DNA from: Paracoccaceae bacterium | GTDB lineage: Bacteria; Pseudomonadota; Alphaproteobacteria; Rhodobacterales; Rhodobacteraceae | DNA: 57,892 nt | Direction of reading: 5' to 3' | Assembly: GCA_017510335.1 (NCBI GenBank) | Contig: JAFWNM010000035.1 | Coordinates: forward strand, 1-57,892 | Shown: positions 49,957-57,892 of the stretch, piece by piece | Position numbering within the stretch: position 1 is the first letter of the stretch | How the letters are laid out: each line of letters starts with the position of its first letter | The notes under the pieces: model-generated | Database searches by the model: none | Told to the model about the DNA's origin: nothing | What the model saw: the letters and a program-made list of their open reading frames with translations, nothing else | Made by a program: the position numbers and the translations under genes

Positions 49957-50301
49957 TTACTCGGCCAGATCATCCATACTGACGCCAAGCGCATTGGCCA
50001 AGGCGCGCAGGGTCGCGACAGAGCCCCGCTTTCGGCCTGTCTCAATTTCGGCCACAGTAACGCGGTTCACGCCCGCTTTTTCCGCAAGGGCAGCTTGCGT
50101 TATCCCGCGCAGGTCCCGGTAGACGCGCAGGGCGTTTTCGCCGTTCAGCAGGCGGTTCGCGTATTCCATAGGTATCAATTCGTCTTCGCCTGCCGCCAGA
50201 GCAGCCTTGGCGCGGTCGTAGCTTTGCAAATCAGCGAGATCTTCAGCCGCCGTCCGCAGGCGGTCATATTCTTCGCGTGGAATCGTCACCATCTCGTTCA
50301 T
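49957..50301 (-). CDS. HTH-type antitoxin (XRE family)
   Basis: The 114-residue protein has an N-terminal helical part (IPREEYDRLRTAAEDLADL) and a C-terminal XRE helix-turn-helix: LRGITQAALAEKAGVNRVTV, then E-I-E-T-G-R-K-R-G-S-V-A-T-L-R-A-L-A-N-A-L. It lies 11 nt downstream of a RelE/ParE-type gene, so the order is toxin first, as in HigBA systems. It should neutralise the toxin and repress the shared promoter. Confidence 0.85.
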   Translation of the reverse strand: MNEMVTIPREEYDRLRTAAEDLADLQSYDRAKAALAAGEDELIPMEYANRLLNGENALRVYRDLRGITQAALAEKAGVNRVTVAEIETGRKRGSVATLRALANALGVSMDDLAE

Positions 50302-50312
50302 GTCATGCCCCT

Positions 50313-50564
50313 TCAGTCATAGATGCCGCCCCGAGGGCCGATTTCCAGCACGGCCAAGACGTTGCCTTGATCGTCAATGATCACCCGCCAATCCCCGACA
50401 GGCAGTCTTATCCCCTCTCGGCCTTTCAGGGATTTCACGGTGTTTGCCTGCGAGGCCGGGTCTGTCGCATATGCCTCGATCTTGGTACGGATCAGCTTGG
50501 CCGTGTTCGCCGGCATCCGTCGCAAGACCCTGATCGCGGCTTTCGTGTAGCTGATCTGCCTCAT
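50313..50564 (-). CDS. RelE/ParE-family toxin
   Basis: The 83-residue protein shows the family pattern: Y-T-K-A-A-I-R-V-L-R-R-M-P near the start, SLKGREGIRLPVGDWRVI in the middle (the basic R-x-G-D-W-R-V strand) and V-L-E-I-G-P-R-G-G-I-Y at the end. Such toxins cleave mRNA at the ribosome. The gene is upstream of the HTH antitoxin and has the same orientation. Target and toxicity are inferred. It lies among integrase and repeat debris, typical for an acquired toxin-antitoxin module. Confidence 0.85.
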   Translation of the reverse strand: MRQISYTKAAIRVLRRMPANTAKLIRTKIEAYATDPASQANTVKSLKGREGIRLPVGDWRVIIDDQGNVLAVLEIGPRGGIYD

Positions 50565-51257: not shown

Positions 51258-51271
51258 GCCTGTATACAAGT
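51258..51271. promoter_or_regulatory. Candidate GntR operator upstream of the phosphatase-importer operon
   Basis: GCCTGTATACAAGT matches 12 of 14 positions of the perfect palindrome GCCTGTATACAGGC found upstream of the phnD-like gene (55336-55349). It lies about 50 nt upstream of the first gene of the plus-strand operon. The GntR gene in the same cluster is the natural candidate binder. Confidence 0.6.
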
Positions 51272-51322
51272 GGTCGATCATCCACATGCCAAATACCCAG
51301 CAAGAGCAAAAAGACAGAGTTT

Positions 51323-51868
51323 ATGGACCTTCCTTTTGACAGCACCGCGCCTTGGAATCATGCCGGTTCGTTAACCGCCCTCAGGAAGCTTGATCTGCCA
51401 ATTCCGATCGCTGGGGCGCTCTGGCTCTCCGGGCTGCCGGTCAGTGGAGGCCATCTAAGCCATTTTCGGGACGAGATCGCGGCGAAAGACATCACCCAGC
51501 TTGTGGTTCTGACTGAAGACCATGAAATCCGCGCCTTGGCTCCCAATTACGCGCGGCTCCTGTCATCTGGTGTTATAGGCCCCTCTGTAATACGCCTGCC
51601 AATCCGTGATTTCGGTGTTCCTGAAAGCCCGTCAGAGTTTCGCCATGCAGCTCAGGACATTGCCGCATCTTTGCAGCAAGGCGCGCGCATTGTGATGCAT
51701 TGCCGCGGCGGTATCGGGCGGACTGGTTTGATGGCGTGTGCGGTCCTGACGGAACTTGGCTTGCCGATCGACGAGGCCATCGTGCTGGTCGCTGCTGCCG
51801 GATCGAAATGCGAAACAACTGAGCAGACCGCATTCTTGCGAAAGGCCTATGACAATGCTGAAGATTGA
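51323..51868 (+). CDS. Cysteine phosphatase (CX5R, dual-specificity/PTP-like)
   Basis: The 181-residue protein has the complete catalytic set of protein-tyrosine-phosphatase-fold enzymes: P-loop [10 protein letters not shown] with Cys127 and Arg133, and a general-acid Asp in RDFGVPESP about 29 residues earlier. The fold starts at [10 protein letters not shown]. No signal peptide, so it is cytoplasmic. It opens the phosphonate-type importer operon and overlaps the ATPase gene by 20 nt, so its production is tied to import. A natural reading is that it removes phosphate from an imported phosphorylated compound, or regulates the operon; the substrate is unknown. The start at 51323 was chosen by family and operator position. 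Confidence 0.85.
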
Positions 51869-52598
51869 GGGACTGACCTGCCGCTTTGGGGCAGTGACCG
51901 CATTGGAAGACGTCACGCTGAGCATTTCCGAGGGAGAGTTTATTGGCATCATTGGCCGATCTGGCGCAGGGAAGTCCACGCTTCTGCGCCTGATCAACCG
52001 GCTGATCGAACCCAGTTCAGGCAAGATTGTTTTCGGGGATGAAGATGTGTTGGCCAAGCGCGGGCGCGCCCTGCAGGACTGGCGCAGACGTGCGGCGATG
52101 ATCTTTCAGCAATTTGCACTTATCGACCGACTGAGCGTGTTGGACAATGTACTGGTTGGCCGTGTCGCCACAGTTCCACGCTGGCGCAGTTGGACACTGT
52201 CCTGGCCCCTTGCCGACCGCGCGCAGGCGATCGAGGCGCTGGACAGGCTGGACATGACAGCGCATGCCCTCAAACGCGCCGACCAATTATCCGGCGGGCA
52301 GCAGCAGCGCGTCGCCATTGCCCGAGCACTGGTGCAGGCGCCGCGGCTGATCCTGGCCGATGAACCTGTCGCCTCACTGGACCCGCGCAGCACGCAGGCG
52401 GTGATGGACAAGCTGGCGCAGATCAATCGCGAAGATGGGCTGACAGTGCTGTGTAATCTGCACCATATCGACCTCGCGCGCCAATACTGTCGGCGGATTA
52501 TCGGCATCCATGCGGGTCGGGTGGTCTTTGACGGGCCGATCGAGGCGCTGGATGCAGCAGCAATCGCGCGCATCTATGGTCAGGGCGGCGAAGAATGA
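51849..52598 (+). CDS. phnC: Phosphonate-type ABC transporter ATPase
   Basis: The 249-residue ATPase has Walker [10 protein letters not shown] near residue 36, Q-loop [19 protein letters not shown], signature [15 protein letters not shown], Walker [13 protein letters not shown] and a switch His in [27 protein letters not shown] is typical of the PhnC branch. The permease genes follow with 4-nt overlaps. An internal ATG (51855) is an alternative start. Symbol by family; the true ligand may be phosphite, phosphate ester or another oxyanion. Confidence 0.9.
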
Positions 52599-53476
52599 CC
52601 GCCAAGACTGGTCCTGTTCAAGATATCGTCGCCGTCGTCGAGGCCCAGCGACACGCCATGAAGCGCAGCAAGCGCCTGCAGACATTTTTGTTTATTGGTG
52701 TCATGATTGTCCTGATCGGCGTATCAGGGCATCTGGGCGAAGTGTCGTGGCAGAAATTCGTCAACGGCATTCCGCGGTTCGGCAATTACATCTGGCGGAC
52801 GCTGCCCGCAATGTCATCAGAGACATTCTGGGCCGACCTGTCGCGCTGGATGTGGGGGTTTCGCCGGTGGGTCGGGCTGTTGTTCGACACAGTGCTGATT
52901 GCGTTCGTGGCCACGACGCTTGGCGTGGTCTTCGGCTTCCTTCTGTCTTTCCCCGCAGCGCGCAATCTGGCAGGCAGCGTCGTCAGCTATCAGCTTGCGC
53001 GCAGGTTTCTGGAATTGATGCGCACGGTGCCGGAACTGGTTTTTGCCATGCTCTTTGTCTTTGCCTTTGGCCTTGGGCCAATGGCCGGGGTGCTTGCCAT
53101 CGTGCTGCATACGATGGGGGTTCTGGGCAAGCTTTTCTCCGAGATCAACGAGACGATCACCGACAAATCGCTGGAAGGCGTGGTCGCGGCTGGTGCCTCG
53201 CGTGATCAGGTGATCCGGCTTGGCGTGGTGCCGCAGGTGATGCCTGCCTTCATCAGCTACACGCTGTTGCGCTTCGAGATCAATGTCCGCTCGGCTTCGG
53301 TGATCGGTTTTGTGGGTGCCGGCGGAATTGGGCAGGAATTGATGTTTGTTATCAACCAGTTCATCTATCGCGACATCAGCGCGATCCTTGTGCTGCTCAT
53401 CATCACCGTGGCGCTGGTCGATATCGTGTCGGAAAAAATCCGGCATCGGGTTCTTGATGGGGAGCAGAAAAGATGA
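52595..53476 (+). CDS. phnE: Phosphonate-type ABC transporter permease 1
   Basis: The 293-residue permease has about six helices. The PhnE hallmark is [20 protein letters not shown], and the family stretch [12 protein letters not shown] is present. The coupling helix motif is in [20 protein letters not shown], followed by [13 protein letters not shown]. It pairs with the next permease, with overlaps of 4 nt on both sides. Confidence 0.92.
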
Positions 53477-54330
53477 CTGCGAAGGCTGATCGATCGTCGC
53501 AGATCGCCCACCTGCATCCTGGGCTTCTTTATCCTGACCCGCGCAGGCTTTGGGGACGCCGTGCTGCCTGGGCCGCATTTCTTGCAGCGTTCCTATGGGC
53601 GTCGCACCAATTGGGCCTCTCGCCAATTACTTTCTGGACAGGCTTTTCCGATCTGTGGATCATCGGCAGCCAGATGTTCCCGCCGACCCACAAAGGGTTC
53701 TGGCAGGAGTATCTGGCCGCATTGCTCGAAACACTGGCAATCGCCTTTCTGGGGACCATCCTCGCCAGTCTGATTTCAATTCCTCTGGGGTTTCTGGGCG
53801 CGCGCAATGTGGTGCCGAATTTCGCCATTCACTTCGGGCTGCGCCGGGTGTTGGACGTGGTGCGCGGGGTCGATACGCTGATCTGGGCGCTGATTTTCGT
53901 GTCTGTCGTGGGGCTTGGGCCTTTTGCGGGCATTCTGGCCATCGCGCTGAACGACACCGGCGTTCTGGCCAAGATCTATGCCGAGGCCGTGGAGAACGCA
54001 GACAAGAAAGCCGGTGAGGGAGTGCGTTCAGCAGGCGGCAGCGGCGCGGATGTGGCGCGGCTGGCGATCTGGCCGCAGGTCTTTCCGGTCTTCTTGTCCA
54101 ACAGCCTCTATTTCTTCGAGGCCAACACCCGGTCTGCCACGATCCTGGGTGTGGTGGGCGCCGGCGGGATCGGGTTCTTTCTGGCCGACCGCATCCGGGT
54201 GAACGCCTGGAGCGATGTGGCCTTCATCATCTTGCTGATCCTGCCCACCGTGGCCGCCATCGACTACCTGTCGCGCTGGCTTCGGAAAAAGGCCATCGGT
54301 CGCCAGGACGCGCCCGGCGCCCGGCTGTGA
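53473..54330 (+). CDS. phnE: Phosphonate-type ABC transporter permease 2
   Basis: The 285-residue second permease is homologous to the first: ALLETLAIAFLGTILASLIS, VVRGVDTLIWALIFVSVVG, E-G-V-R-S-A-G-G-S-G-A-D-V-A-R-L-A-I-W-P and LGVVGAGGIGFFL. Two tandem permeases form a heterodimer, common in this transporter branch. It is followed by a bidirectional terminator. Confidence 0.92.
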   Translation: MTAKADRSSQIAHLHPGLLYPDPRRLWGRRAAWAAFLAAFLWASHQLGLSPITFWTGFSDLWIIGSQMFPPTHKGFWQEYLAALLETLAIAFLGTILASLISIPLGFLGARNVVPNFAIHFGLRRVLDVVRGVDTLIWALIFVSVVGLGPFAGILAIALNDTGVLAKIYAEAVENADKKAGEGVRSAGGSGADVARLAIWPQVFPVFLSNSLYFFEANTRSATILGVVGAGGIGFFLADRIRVNAWSDVAFIILLILPTVAAIDYLSRWLRKKAIGRQDAPGARL

Positions 54331-54351
54331 TACCGGGGGCAGCCTCCGACG

Positions 54352-54383
54352 AAAAAAGGCCCCGCTGCAGCAGCGGGGCCTTT
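54352..54383. terminator. Bidirectional terminator between permease 2 and phnD
   Basis: A 13-bp perfect stem, AAAGGCCCCGCTG (54355-54367) with CAGCGGGGCCTTT (54371-54383), and a CAG loop. Runs of A (54352-54357) and T (54381-54383) flank it, so it can stop transcription of both converging units. Confidence 0.9.
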
Positions 54384-54401
54384 CCCTGTCGCAGGCCGTG
54401 A

Positions 54402-55304
54402 TCAGTTGCGCTGGGCCAGCATGGCCTCGCGCATGGCGATGCTGTCGAGAAACGCCTCGTGACCGACGGGCACGATCTGCGTCCAGGACCCGCCAGAGCT
54501 GACGATGTCGAAACGCTCGGGATCGGCCTCGTGGAAGCTTGTCAGTGCCGCAAGCAGATCAGCCTTCAGATCCTCGGGCATGGAGGCGCGCACCGACCAG
54601 GCGTCAGAGGGGATCAGCGGGCTTTCCCAGATCACCCGCACGGCGTCGGCAGGGATCTCGCCACGCTCGGTCATGCGCTGAACGGCGCCATTGTCCTCGG
54701 TGTAGTGCCATGTCGCGGCGGCGTCGTAGGTGCCGCGCACCACGGCCAGAATGCCGTTGTCATGGCTGCCCGAGAAACCGGTTTCCGAAAAATGCCCTTC
54801 ACCAAGGCCCATCTGGCCCAGGTAGAAGTTGGGGACCAGATAGCCCGAGGCCGAGTTCGGATCGGCAAAGGCCAGCGTCTGACCGGCCAGATCCTCAAGC
54901 GACTGTGCCGTGCTGTCGGCCGAGACGATCACCACCGCGAAATAGCCGCGGTCGCCAGTGGCCGACACCGCATGCCCCAAGGGCTCGAGATCGCCGCCCA
55001 GAACGTCATAGGCCGAGGCATAGGCGGCGGCGCCAAACATCGCCATGTCGGCCTCGTTGGCATCCATTGCCTGAATGATACCGCTATATGCACTGGCCAT
55101 ACGCAGCGTGACAGGCACGCCAAGGGTTTCGCTAAGGTATTCGGCGAAAGGGCCGTAACGACGCTGGCCTTCTTCGGCATTCTCGATCGGAGGAATGCCA
55201 ATGGTCAGGCTGTCATGGCTCTGGCGCCAATCCGCAAAAGCAGGAAGAGAAAGGGCAAGGCTTAGCGCGGCGGCGCTGGTGGAAAGCAGAAAACGGCGGT
55301 TCAT
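54402..55304 (-). CDS. phnD: Phosphonate-type periplasmic substrate-binding protein
   Basis: The 300-residue receptor starts MNRRFLLSTSAAALSLALSL with cleavage near AFA-D. The PhnD-family domain follows: LTIGIPPIENAEEG, Y-G-P-F-A-E-Y-L-S-E-T-L-G, ANEADMAMFGAAAYASAYDV, L-A-F-A-D-P-N-S-A-S-G-Y and ETGFSGSHDNGILAVVRGTY, the last forming the ligand pocket with the conserved S-x-S-G/G-S-H. It is encoded apart from the other importer genes, convergent to them, behind the GntR gene, with its own perfect operator palindrome 32 nt upstream. GGAG precedes the ATG. Confidence 0.93.
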   Translation of the reverse strand: MNRRFLLSTSAAALSLALSLPAFADWRQSHDSLTIGIPPIENAEEGQRRYGPFAEYLSETLGVPVTLRMASAYSGIIQAMDANEADMAMFGAAAYASAYDVLGGDLEPLGHAVSATGDRGYFAVVIVSADSTAQSLEDLAGQTLAFADPNSASGYLVPNFYLGQMGLGEGHFSETGFSGSHDNGILAVVRGTYDAAATWHYTEDNGAVQRMTERGEIPADAVRVIWESPLIPSDAWSVRASMPEDLKADLLAALTSFHEADPERFDIVSSGGSWTQIVPVGHEAFLDSIAMREAMLAQRN

Positions 55305-55335
55305 GAGAGTTCTCCATCGCAGGTTCAGGCGGTCT

Positions 55336-55349
55336 GCCTGTATACAGGC
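55336..55349. promoter_or_regulatory. Perfect operator palindrome upstream of phnD
   Basis: GCCTGTATACAGGC is a perfect 14-bp palindrome between the GntR gene and the phnD ATG. A 12-of-14 match lies upstream of the other operon (51258-51271). It is likely the binding site of the GntR regulator. Confidence 0.65.
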
Positions 55350-55391
55350 TGCTAGCATCCAGAGATGACAAGCCAGTGACAGCCCTTGAAC

Positions 55392-56060
55392 TCACATCTG
55401 AGTGGAAAACGACTTGCCGAATTCTCGCATCGCCAAAGCGATCATTTGCAACGCAGCACGGGCATCTGTTTGCACCAGCAAATTGCGGCACAATCGCCCA
55501 AGGATCTGCGCCTGTTTTTCTCTGGAACCTGGCCCATCCTGCTGCAGCAGGCGGCGAAGTGCGCGCCAATGCAAACTCGCGGTCGCATCTGCCATGATCG
55601 GTTCAGGGTTCAGATTCTTGGCCAAAACGATAAGCTTGGAACTTACCGCGAAGATGGTCGATCTACTCAGTGGCTGGACCGACGAAAACTGCGCGATATG
55701 CGTGTCGATGTCCCCTAGCAAGTCGCGCGTGGTCTGATCCAGCAACGGTTCCGCGGTTTGCGCTGCCAGTTCCAATGCGCCCGAGAGGGTCATGAAATCA
55801 TGCGCTGCCCCTGCTGGATCAAGCTGTGGCACGACTGTGCCAATACCAGTGCGCGTTTCGACCTGATGCTCATAGGCGAGGCGTTGCAAGACCTGCCGGA
55901 TCGGCGTACGGCTGACACCGAATTCTTCAGCGAGAGCGTTTTCATACAGGATATGCGTCTGGGTCGCATCCATCAAACAGATACGCAGTCGCAATTCCTG
56001 GGTGATGTCATCCAGACGCGACATTGGTGTGCGAGAGACAGGACGCTCCGCCGTTTTCAT
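55392..56060 (-). CDS. GntR-family transcriptional regulator (FCD type)
   Basis: The 222-residue regulator has a winged helix at about 15-75 (ILYENALAEEFGVSRTPIRQ, then VLQRLAYEHQV) and an all-helical C-terminal ligand domain of the FadR/FCD kind. It lies between phnD and the second phosphatase gene, divergent from the latter. It should control the importer in response to the ligand via the CTGTATACAG palindromes. ATG at 56060 follows GAGGC; a TTG 21 nt earlier is less likely. Confidence 0.88.
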   Translation of the reverse strand: MKTAERPVSRTPMSRLDDITQELRLRICLMDATQTHILYENALAEEFGVSRTPIRQVLQRLAYEHQVETRTGIGTVVPQLDPAGAAHDFMTLSGALELAAQTAEPLLDQTTRDLLGDIDTHIAQFSSVQPLSRSTIFAVSSKLIVLAKNLNPEPIMADATASLHWRALRRLLQQDGPGSREKQAQILGRLCRNLLVQTDARAALQMIALAMREFGKSFSTQM

Positions 56061-56166
56061 CTTCAATGCCTCTGATCGCAAATGCCTAGAGGACTATACT
56101 CGGGCTGAATGCGCGCAACAATCTTCGAAAGCAGTTGTCACTGTGAAAAACAAGCTACCTCCAGAA

Positions 56167-56712
56167 ATGACCGATATCCGTTCTATGGTGCCAATTGGCG
56201 ATGGAAGGATTGTCCTTTCAGGCTGGCCAGGACTTCGGATCACGCCCACCGGCAAGGCTTGGATCGATCCAGAGGCAACTGCAGCCACGCTGGCGGAAAT
56301 GCAAACCCATAATGTCGCTGTTCTGATCGCTCTGTGCGAAACAGCCGAGCTGCGTGACCACGCCATCCCGCAACTGCGGCATTGCGCCCGACAGGCTGCA
56401 ATAAGGCTTGTTCATGCGCCAATATGCGATTTCCAACCGCCAGATGAACGATTTTTGCGGCTCTGGCACGCATTTGCCCCGATCCTCTACCAACGGATTG
56501 ATGCAGGTGCCGCGATCGCTTTGGTATGCTCTTATGGCGCAGGCCGCAGCGGTACAATTGCCGCCATGATGCTGGCCGAATATGGATTGCCCATGCCCGA
56601 AGCTGTAGCACAGATACGAGCGGGGTTTCCCGTAGCAATCGAAAGCTCAGCGCAGGAAAGATGGCTTTCAGAGCGGTGTTCACGCGATAACGCGATAGGA
56701 CACCAGCGCTAA
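56167..56712 (+). CDS. Second cysteine phosphatase (CX5R, PTP-like)
   Basis: The 181-residue protein has P-loop VCSYGAGRSGT with Cys121 and Arg127 and a general-acid Asp in CDFQPPDE about 32 residues earlier, so its catalytic set is complete. It is only distantly similar to the phosphatase at 51323-51868 (shared D-F-x-x-P, C-x5-R-[ST]-G). It is divergent from the GntR gene by about 100 nt, no signal peptide. It frames the importer cluster on the opposite side to the first phosphatase, so both may process the same imported compound. GTG at 56143 is an alternative start. Confidence 0.8.
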   Translation: MTDIRSMVPIGDGRIVLSGWPGLRITPTGKAWIDPEATAATLAEMQTHNVAVLIALCETAELRDHAIPQLRHCARQAAIRLVHAPICDFQPPDERFLRLWHAFAPILYQRIDAGAAIALVCSYGAGRSGTIAAMMLAEYGLPMPEAVAQIRAGFPVAIESSAQERWLSERCSRDNAIGHQR

Positions 56713-57167: not shown

Positions 57168-57585
57168 TTCGCTCACCATCGCAAACTGACCGACGACGAA
57201 CGCCGCCAGATCATTGAAGCCCGCGCCGGGGGCACCTCTGCCGCCGCTCTGGCCCGCCGCTTCAGCGTCTCGACCCGGACGATCTACAACACGCTGGGAC
57301 GGGCCAAACGCGCGTGCCTGGGCCTAACCACGACGATCAGCACCCGCCTCAGCGCGCACCAGCTGGCGGGGTTTCAGGCCGCGCTGCCACGCCGGGGCAT
57401 CATCGACCAACCGGCTGCCCTGCGCCGCCTGCTGGGGGCCGCCGACATCCTGCTCGCCCTGTCGATACGGTGGCGCTCGATCACTTGCAAGCCTGGGGCG
57501 CGCAGGTCGCCACCAAAGGTGCCGCAGTCAACCACATCGCCCGCAAGCTGAACGAAGCCAAGCTCCGCGGCCGCCCGTCTGGTGC
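57168..57585 (+). pseudogene. Frameshifted mobC-like plasmid mobilisation gene
   Basis: The plus strand reads KLTDDERRQIIEARAGGTSA and ALARRFSVSTRTIYNTLGRA, then TTTISTRLSAHQLAGFQAAL up to ADIL. The frame then changes near 57460, and VALDHLQAWGAQVATKG with AVNHIARKLNEAKLRG follows in another frame. The helix-turn-helix start and the V-N-x-I-A-R-x-L-N core are those of MobC-type relaxosome proteins of alphaproteobacterial plasmids. No start codon is seen in frame at the 5' end and one frameshift is clear, so it is inactive. Confidence 0.7.
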
Positions 57586-57870
57586 CGCTTCAAGACCGGG
57601 CTGGAGGAAGAGGGGCTGATCGCGCCCGGCCTGACGCTCAAGGGCCTGCGCCATACCATGGCGACGACGCTGCGCGAGGCGGGGCTGGATGAGCGGCGCA
57701 TCGCTGACCCGCTGGGGCAGAAAACACCGTCCGTGGCGCGGCACTATTCGCGGTCGGCAAACCTTGCCGACAAAAACCGTGAGACAATGGCGACGCTGGA
57801 AAAAGCGAACGCAAGGCGGGCGAAGATTGTCATACCTGTCGCCGAAAAGCGTCAAACCCGATATGAGTAA
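57586..57870 (+). pseudogene. C-terminal fragment of a tyrosine integrase
   Basis: The frame runs from FKTGLEEEGLIAPGLTLKGL through RHTMATTLREAGLDERRIAD and PLGQKTPSVARHYSRSANL to the stop at 57868-57870. Catalytic Arg (LRHT) and Tyr (RHYSR) are present, and H is replaced in the expected LGH position (PLGQKT), as in some families. The N-terminal and core parts are missing; it follows the mobC-like piece directly, so the junction is a deletion scar. Confidence 0.75.
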
Positions 57871-57879
57871 GGAGCGGAC

Positions 57880-57892
57880 ATGACCACAAAAC
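57880..57892 (+). CDS. Start of a gene running out of the window (partial)
   Basis: ATG at 57880 follows AAGGAG with good spacing and reads MTTK up to the window edge. Nothing else can be said. Confidence 0.4.

Follow-up and report, generated by a model that had tools for sequence, protein, structure and literature searches.

The window, by which we mean the whole stretch of 57,892 nucleotides that was analysed (G000:C31:1-57892), comes from a 3.6-Mb genome that was sorted into the family of Chachezhania sediminis. Between positions 51323 and 56712 it encodes a PhnC-PhnE-PhnE-PhnD importer, a GntR-family regulator, and two phosphatases with CX5R loops, hereafter PTP1 and PTP2 (Table 1). The original prediction had placed one ATPase, two permeases, a PhnD-type receptor, a GntR regulator and two phosphatases side by side at this locus, and both the genes and their order proved to be as described, with family models confirming the gene names. 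PhnC and both PhnE permeases exceeded the NCBIfam equivalog cut-offs of the PhnCDE family models; the receptor passed the subfamily model TIGR01098 (216.3 bits against a cut-off of 112.05) and fell below the PhnD equivalog TIGR03431 (239.9 bits against 261.1). The PTP1, PhnC, PhnE1 and PhnE2 genes share the plus strand and overlap at their ends, and so resemble a single operon.

Table 1. Features of the phosphatase-linked importer cluster (window positions) and of a candidate RNA in relatives
Feature	Position	Strand	Details
TGTATACA palindrome, candidate GntR operator, 54 bases before PTP1	51261..51268	strandless	same place in L082, L084
PTP1, PTP/DSP-fold phosphatase, first gene of importer operon	51323..51868	+	D96, C127, R133
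PhnC ATPase, overlaps PTP1	51855..52598	+	TIGR02315, 326.5 bits vs cut-off 266.1
PhnE permease 1	52595..53476	+	TIGR01097, 265.0 bits vs cut-off 216.7
PhnE permease 2	53473..54330	+	TIGR01097, 273.4 bits vs cut-off 216.7
PhnD-type receptor	54402..55304	-	PF12974, 213.3 bits; TIGR01098 above, TIGR03431 below cut-off; 3p7i, E 2.8e-25
TGTATACA palindrome, candidate GntR operator, 34 bases before phnD	55339..55346	strandless	same place in L082, L084
GntR-family regulator	55392..56060	-	GntR domain; C-terminal part without Pfam domain match
PTP2, PTP/DSP-fold phosphatase, divergent from GntR	56143..56712	+	start codon uncertain: GTG 56143 or downstream ATG
Structured RNA candidate, genus g8	L060:10203-10322		likewise L062, L064, L065, L066, L067, L069

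The original prediction also stated that C-P lyase genes are absent; the genome has a single match to the C-P lyase marker PhnJ, which lies outside the window on another contig (C43), about 9 to 11 kb from two other PhnD genes. An Rfam search returned no relevant match, and a promoter and terminator scan gave fewer sites than in shuffled sequence; an inverted repeat seen by eye between the convergent genes, near 54358-54380, is absent from the list of that scan. Upstream of the cluster we noted a ParE-like toxin with an HTH antitoxin (49957-50564), and the end of the window (57200-57892) appears by eye to hold integrase or resolvase fragments. Such surroundings may mean that the cluster belongs to a mobile region.

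Both phosphatases had been credited with complete catalytic residues, and this proved correct: the Cys, the Arg and an upstream Asp are present in PTP1, and the Cys/Arg pair of PTP2 is intact. Counted from the GTG at 56143 the PTP2 pair is C129/R135, which corresponds to C121/R127 from the downstream ATG, evidently the start used for the earlier numbering. The PTP fold and the CX5R loop with its upstream Asp were both found, and D96, C127 and R133 of PTP1 are invariant in a 19-row alignment. The PTP1 structure model lies close to KAP, which together with small archaeal PTPs provides the nearest structural matches. No signal peptide was evident by eye in either phosphatase. The description of the two enzymes as unrelated had to be abandoned: both match Pfam Tc-R-P, a PTP1 search of its own genome retrieved PTP2 (E 1.2e-7, 30% identity), and a joint alignment of 16 rows has 12 invariant columns, which include the catalytic Asp, Cys and Arg. 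In a 45-row tree, some branches of which are long (that of the L083 PTP1 above all), the seven PTP1 rows from both of the importer contexts described below grouped together (98/93) and separately from 18 general PTPs; the 15 PTP2 rows formed a group of their own (100/100). A general association of such PTPs with Phn genes was rejected, since only one (L010) of 29 further PTP1-match loci (L010-L038), with flanks of at most 1.5 kb, has Phn genes. A PTP2-like domain also occurs inside plasmid-encoded proteins annotated as members of the ADP-ribosylglycohydrolase family (L081:4974-6512; hits H45 and H48).

A survey of gene neighbourhoods had been proposed as a check on whether the phosphatases are linked to the importer in relatives. 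We scanned the genome collection for PhnD with a two-row alignment query; 103 stretches matched, and three of them encode a relative. A Loktanella bin (L082) and Rhabdonatronobacter sediminivivens (L084) carry all seven genes in the order and orientation of the window. Chachezhania sediminis (L083) carries PhnD, PTP1, PhnC, PhnE1 and PhnE2 in a row, and neither GntR nor PTP2 gave a match at this locus. PTP1 is thus linked to the Phn importer in all three relatives, and PTP2 and GntR in two of the three, with identities to the window proteins of 72 to 84% for PhnD and 34 to 47% for PTP1. Given that PhnD was found at E <= 1e-60 in only 2 of 244 genomes of the order, its own genome included, the Phn importer cluster is rare; it is missing even from the only other sampled member of the genus.

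The phosphatases also accompany a second kind of importer. On plasmids of Roseateles sp. XES5 (a record flagged as unverified), Shinella zoogloeoides and Ensifer sp. PDNC004 (L078-L080), genes for a receptor, PTP2, GntR, PTP1 and two permeases follow one another in a row, the importer being of the amino-acid type; these three clusters were retrieved through the phosphatases and so form a biased sample. Genomes of two further families (G282 and G574; clusters L128 and L129) have an amino-acid-type importer, with a receptor 61 to 62% identical, together with GntR and two PTPs that fall outside both the PTP1 and the PTP2 tree groups, as if two phosphatases had been recruited a second time. In another two genomes (G014 and G083) the amino-acid-type importer and GntR are joined by PTP2 only. 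The best match of the alternative importer's receptor is a lysine/arginine/ornithine model, below its cut-off; both this receptor and the permeases are of the amino-acid family, to which AapJ/BztA-like polar-amino-acid importers belong. In no phosphatase-linked amino-acid-type cluster did we see an ATPase gene directly beside the permeases. As a control we examined four other amino-acid receptors of this kind (44 to 46% identity), three of which, in contrast, have an adjacent ATPase gene, the fourth lying on an 8.4-kb contig; neither a PTP match nor TGTATACA was found beside any of the four in the fetched stretches. The phosphatases thus remain beside the regulator while the importer family changes, a pattern that fits dephosphorylation of an imported compound better than control of a single transporter.

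Within the window, the palindrome TGTATACA lies ahead of each importer unit; with its CC flank it matched three times there against 0.01 expected. It was present in 19 of 20 clusters that combine GntR with a phosphatase (the window, L082, L084, L078-L080, L059, L061, seven clusters of genus g8, two of genus g3, L063, L128 and L129), the exception being L063. No site was found in the cluster L058/L083, which has no GntR; one site is present in L071, where a GntR relative was found but no PTP match. TGTATACA is probably the GntR operator. The regulator itself falls outside the cut-off of the PhnF model, and among 12 members scanned we found no match to an effector domain beyond the GntR domain.

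GntR occurs in 17 of the 244 genomes of the order, its own included. We read all 16 other neighbourhoods and found a PTP2 match in 12 and none in 4; two further GntR relatives from a sample of the class (G618 and G400) likewise showed no PTP in the fetched stretches. Of the 12 relatives with GntR and PTP2, only G014 and G083 have the amino-acid-type importer; in the remaining 10, no orthologue of either importer's receptor was found anywhere in the genome at the cut-offs used. Therefore, PTP2 and GntR can serve a purpose without either importer. The original prediction had staked its case on phosphatases remaining linked to the importer in relatives; approached from the importer this linkage holds, but approached from GntR and PTP2 it mostly does not.

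Several further elements lie beside TGTATACA. In genus g8, the exact palindrome stands upstream of the gene for an ABC receptor, which we read from its sequence as peptide-type, in four of seven genomes (L115, L116, L117 and L118); one genome has a site with one mismatch and two have none, a pattern only suggestive of a third importer. In a single genome (G007, L119:6400-7527) the palindrome immediately precedes a gene whose product looks, by eye, like an amidinotransferase. Downstream of PTP2 in g8, after the operator, we observed a conserved candidate for a structured RNA with a terminator-like hairpin (Table 1). Of its 48 predicted pairs, 14 have changes on both sides, and it has no Rfam match; among 215 genomes searched, an exact copy of its core pattern occurred once in each of the seven g8 genomes and in no other, and an eighth match had two mismatches. 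In genus g3 (L068:10744-11148 and L070), the place of the RNA is occupied by a small conserved protein, encoded after a second operator downstream of PTP2; the L068 copy has no Pfam match.

To narrow down the ligand, we aligned the receptor with Escherichia coli PhnD (3p7i). PhnD residues Y47, Y93, S127, S129, H157 and D205 correspond to Y73, Y121, S151, S153, H181 and D234 of the receptor, and T128, S68 and N175 are replaced by A152, A94 and Y201. Glu177 and Asp205 of PhnD are described as holding the amine of 2-aminoethylphosphonate (PMC12718374, PMC5908839, PMC5700983). The alignment makes D234 a firm counterpart of Asp205. For E203, pairwise alignments with 3p7i and, through a T-E motif, with 3n5l give Glu177 as the counterpart, an assignment that depends on the alignment and shifts in a multiple alignment with the other PhnD proteins of the genome. 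Both E203 and D234 are invariant in four orthologues. The receptor probably binds a phosphorus-oxyanion head and probably also an amine. Given that the phosphonate-head residues and the amine-holding Asp are kept, we favour as ligand a phosphate monoester of an amine or amino acid, of the phosphoserine or phosphoethanolamine type. Inositol phosphates and phosphite, both named as candidates in the original prediction, look less likely because the amine-binding Asp of the 2-aminoethylphosphonate receptor is kept. We set aside a structure model of PhnD as too poor (pLDDT 41.7). Neighbouring genes give a hint of guanidino compounds: in Chachezhania an agmatinase-family gene lies just upstream of phnD and an amidase gene is convergent to the operon, and in Rhabdonatronobacter a dimethylargininase-family gene lies about 7 kb from PTP2. 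The sub-threshold lysine/arginine/ornithine match of the alternative receptor hints the same way. Genes of the agmatinase or dimethylargininase type were not seen in the annotated plasmid neighbourhoods (L078-L080).

From the gene set, the catalytic residues, the linkage, the operator-like sites and the change of importer, all read from the sequence, we infer a ligand, a catalysis and a repression that would combine as follows. In the periplasm, a small phosphorylated compound would be bound by the PhnD-type receptor and then brought in by PhnC and the two PhnE permeases; in the cytoplasm, PTP1 and PTP2 would remove the phosphate. GntR would keep both importer units off through the TGTATACA operators as long as neither the compound nor its product is present. 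Uptake plus dephosphorylation best joins a phosphorus-oxyanion receptor, two importer families and complete PTP active sites, and we give such a GntR-controlled scavenging module about an even chance of being correct. Import with intracellular dephosphorylation was already part of the original prediction, and it now gains indirect support from the conserved linkage and from the retention of phosphatases and regulator across importer families. Counting against it, 10 of the 12 relatives with GntR and PTP2 have neither importer by the search above, the Chachezhania cluster has the importer and PTP1 without GntR or PTP2, the pairing of E203 with Glu177 varies with the alignment, and the plasmid clusters are a biased sample.

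PTP/DSP-fold enzymes mostly act on phosphoproteins, and the phosphatases could instead be regulators that dephosphorylate a transporter subunit or another protein, setting uptake or reporting nutrient state. The structural matches to KAP and small archaeal PTPs speak for such a role, as do the GntR-PTP2 pairs without either importer, which in g8 lie beside the operator-linked RNA. The same PTP1 and PTP2 accompany two importer families, however, which would be unexpected for a dedicated target on one transporter, and we regard a regulatory role as unlikely. Uptake of 2-aminoethylphosphonate or its kin for a C-P lyase encoded elsewhere, with the phosphatases acting on another co-regulated substrate, is in our estimate rather improbable. 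D234, and probably E203, match the residues that hold the amine of this compound, and the genome does have PhnJ; yet the PhnJ on C43 has other PhnD genes nearby, the amino-acid-type importer shares the phosphatases, and no PTP-fold enzyme is known to cleave C-P bonds. We attach little confidence to a broader version of uptake with dephosphorylation, a portable phosphate-stripping module in which the regulator and two small-molecule PTPs would serve varied importers of phosphorylated amino acids, perhaps of N-phosphorylated guanidino compounds such as phosphoarginine. Least probable is uptake of glycerol phosphate as by GpxB of marine bacteria, a PhnT-family receptor that binds glycerol-1- and -3-phosphate and occurs in Rhodobacterales, since GpxB has Arg223 and Thr247 at the places of PhnD Glu177 and Asp205 (PMC12718374), where our receptor probably has Glu instead of the Arg and has Asp instead of the Thr.

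The ATPase, permeases and receptor of the window belong to the family of the PhnCDE phosphonate importer (PhnT family, TC 3.A.1.9), from which the cluster differs in having no PhnJ nearby, two linked PTP-fold phosphatases, and a GntR regulator that falls outside the cut-off of the PhnF model. GpxB is likewise a PhnT-family receptor proposed for a phosphate ester, with tail-binding residues different from those of our receptor. PTP1 and PTP2 resemble PTP/DSP-fold phosphatases (KAP, DUSP23 and archaeal PTPs) in their CX5R loop, upstream Asp and fold, and are set apart by being two paralogues inside an importer cluster. A literature search by titles and abstract starts, mostly outside the subscription literature, returned no description of PTP phosphatases linked to a PhnCDE or amino-acid importer. 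That a compound may be imported and then dephosphorylated is already a known idea; what look new are the PTP-fold pairs as the dephosphorylating enzymes, kept with a regulator across importer families. The gene set suggests a portable way of scavenging phosphorylated nutrients. If uptake with dephosphorylation is correct, bacteria would feed themselves with the help of PTP-fold enzymes, which are commonly taken for signalling phosphatases, and would pair them with exchangeable importers. A single route would then lead to the ligands of two orphans, a PhnD subfamily and an amino-acid-type importer, and not every bacterial PTP should be assumed to act in signalling.
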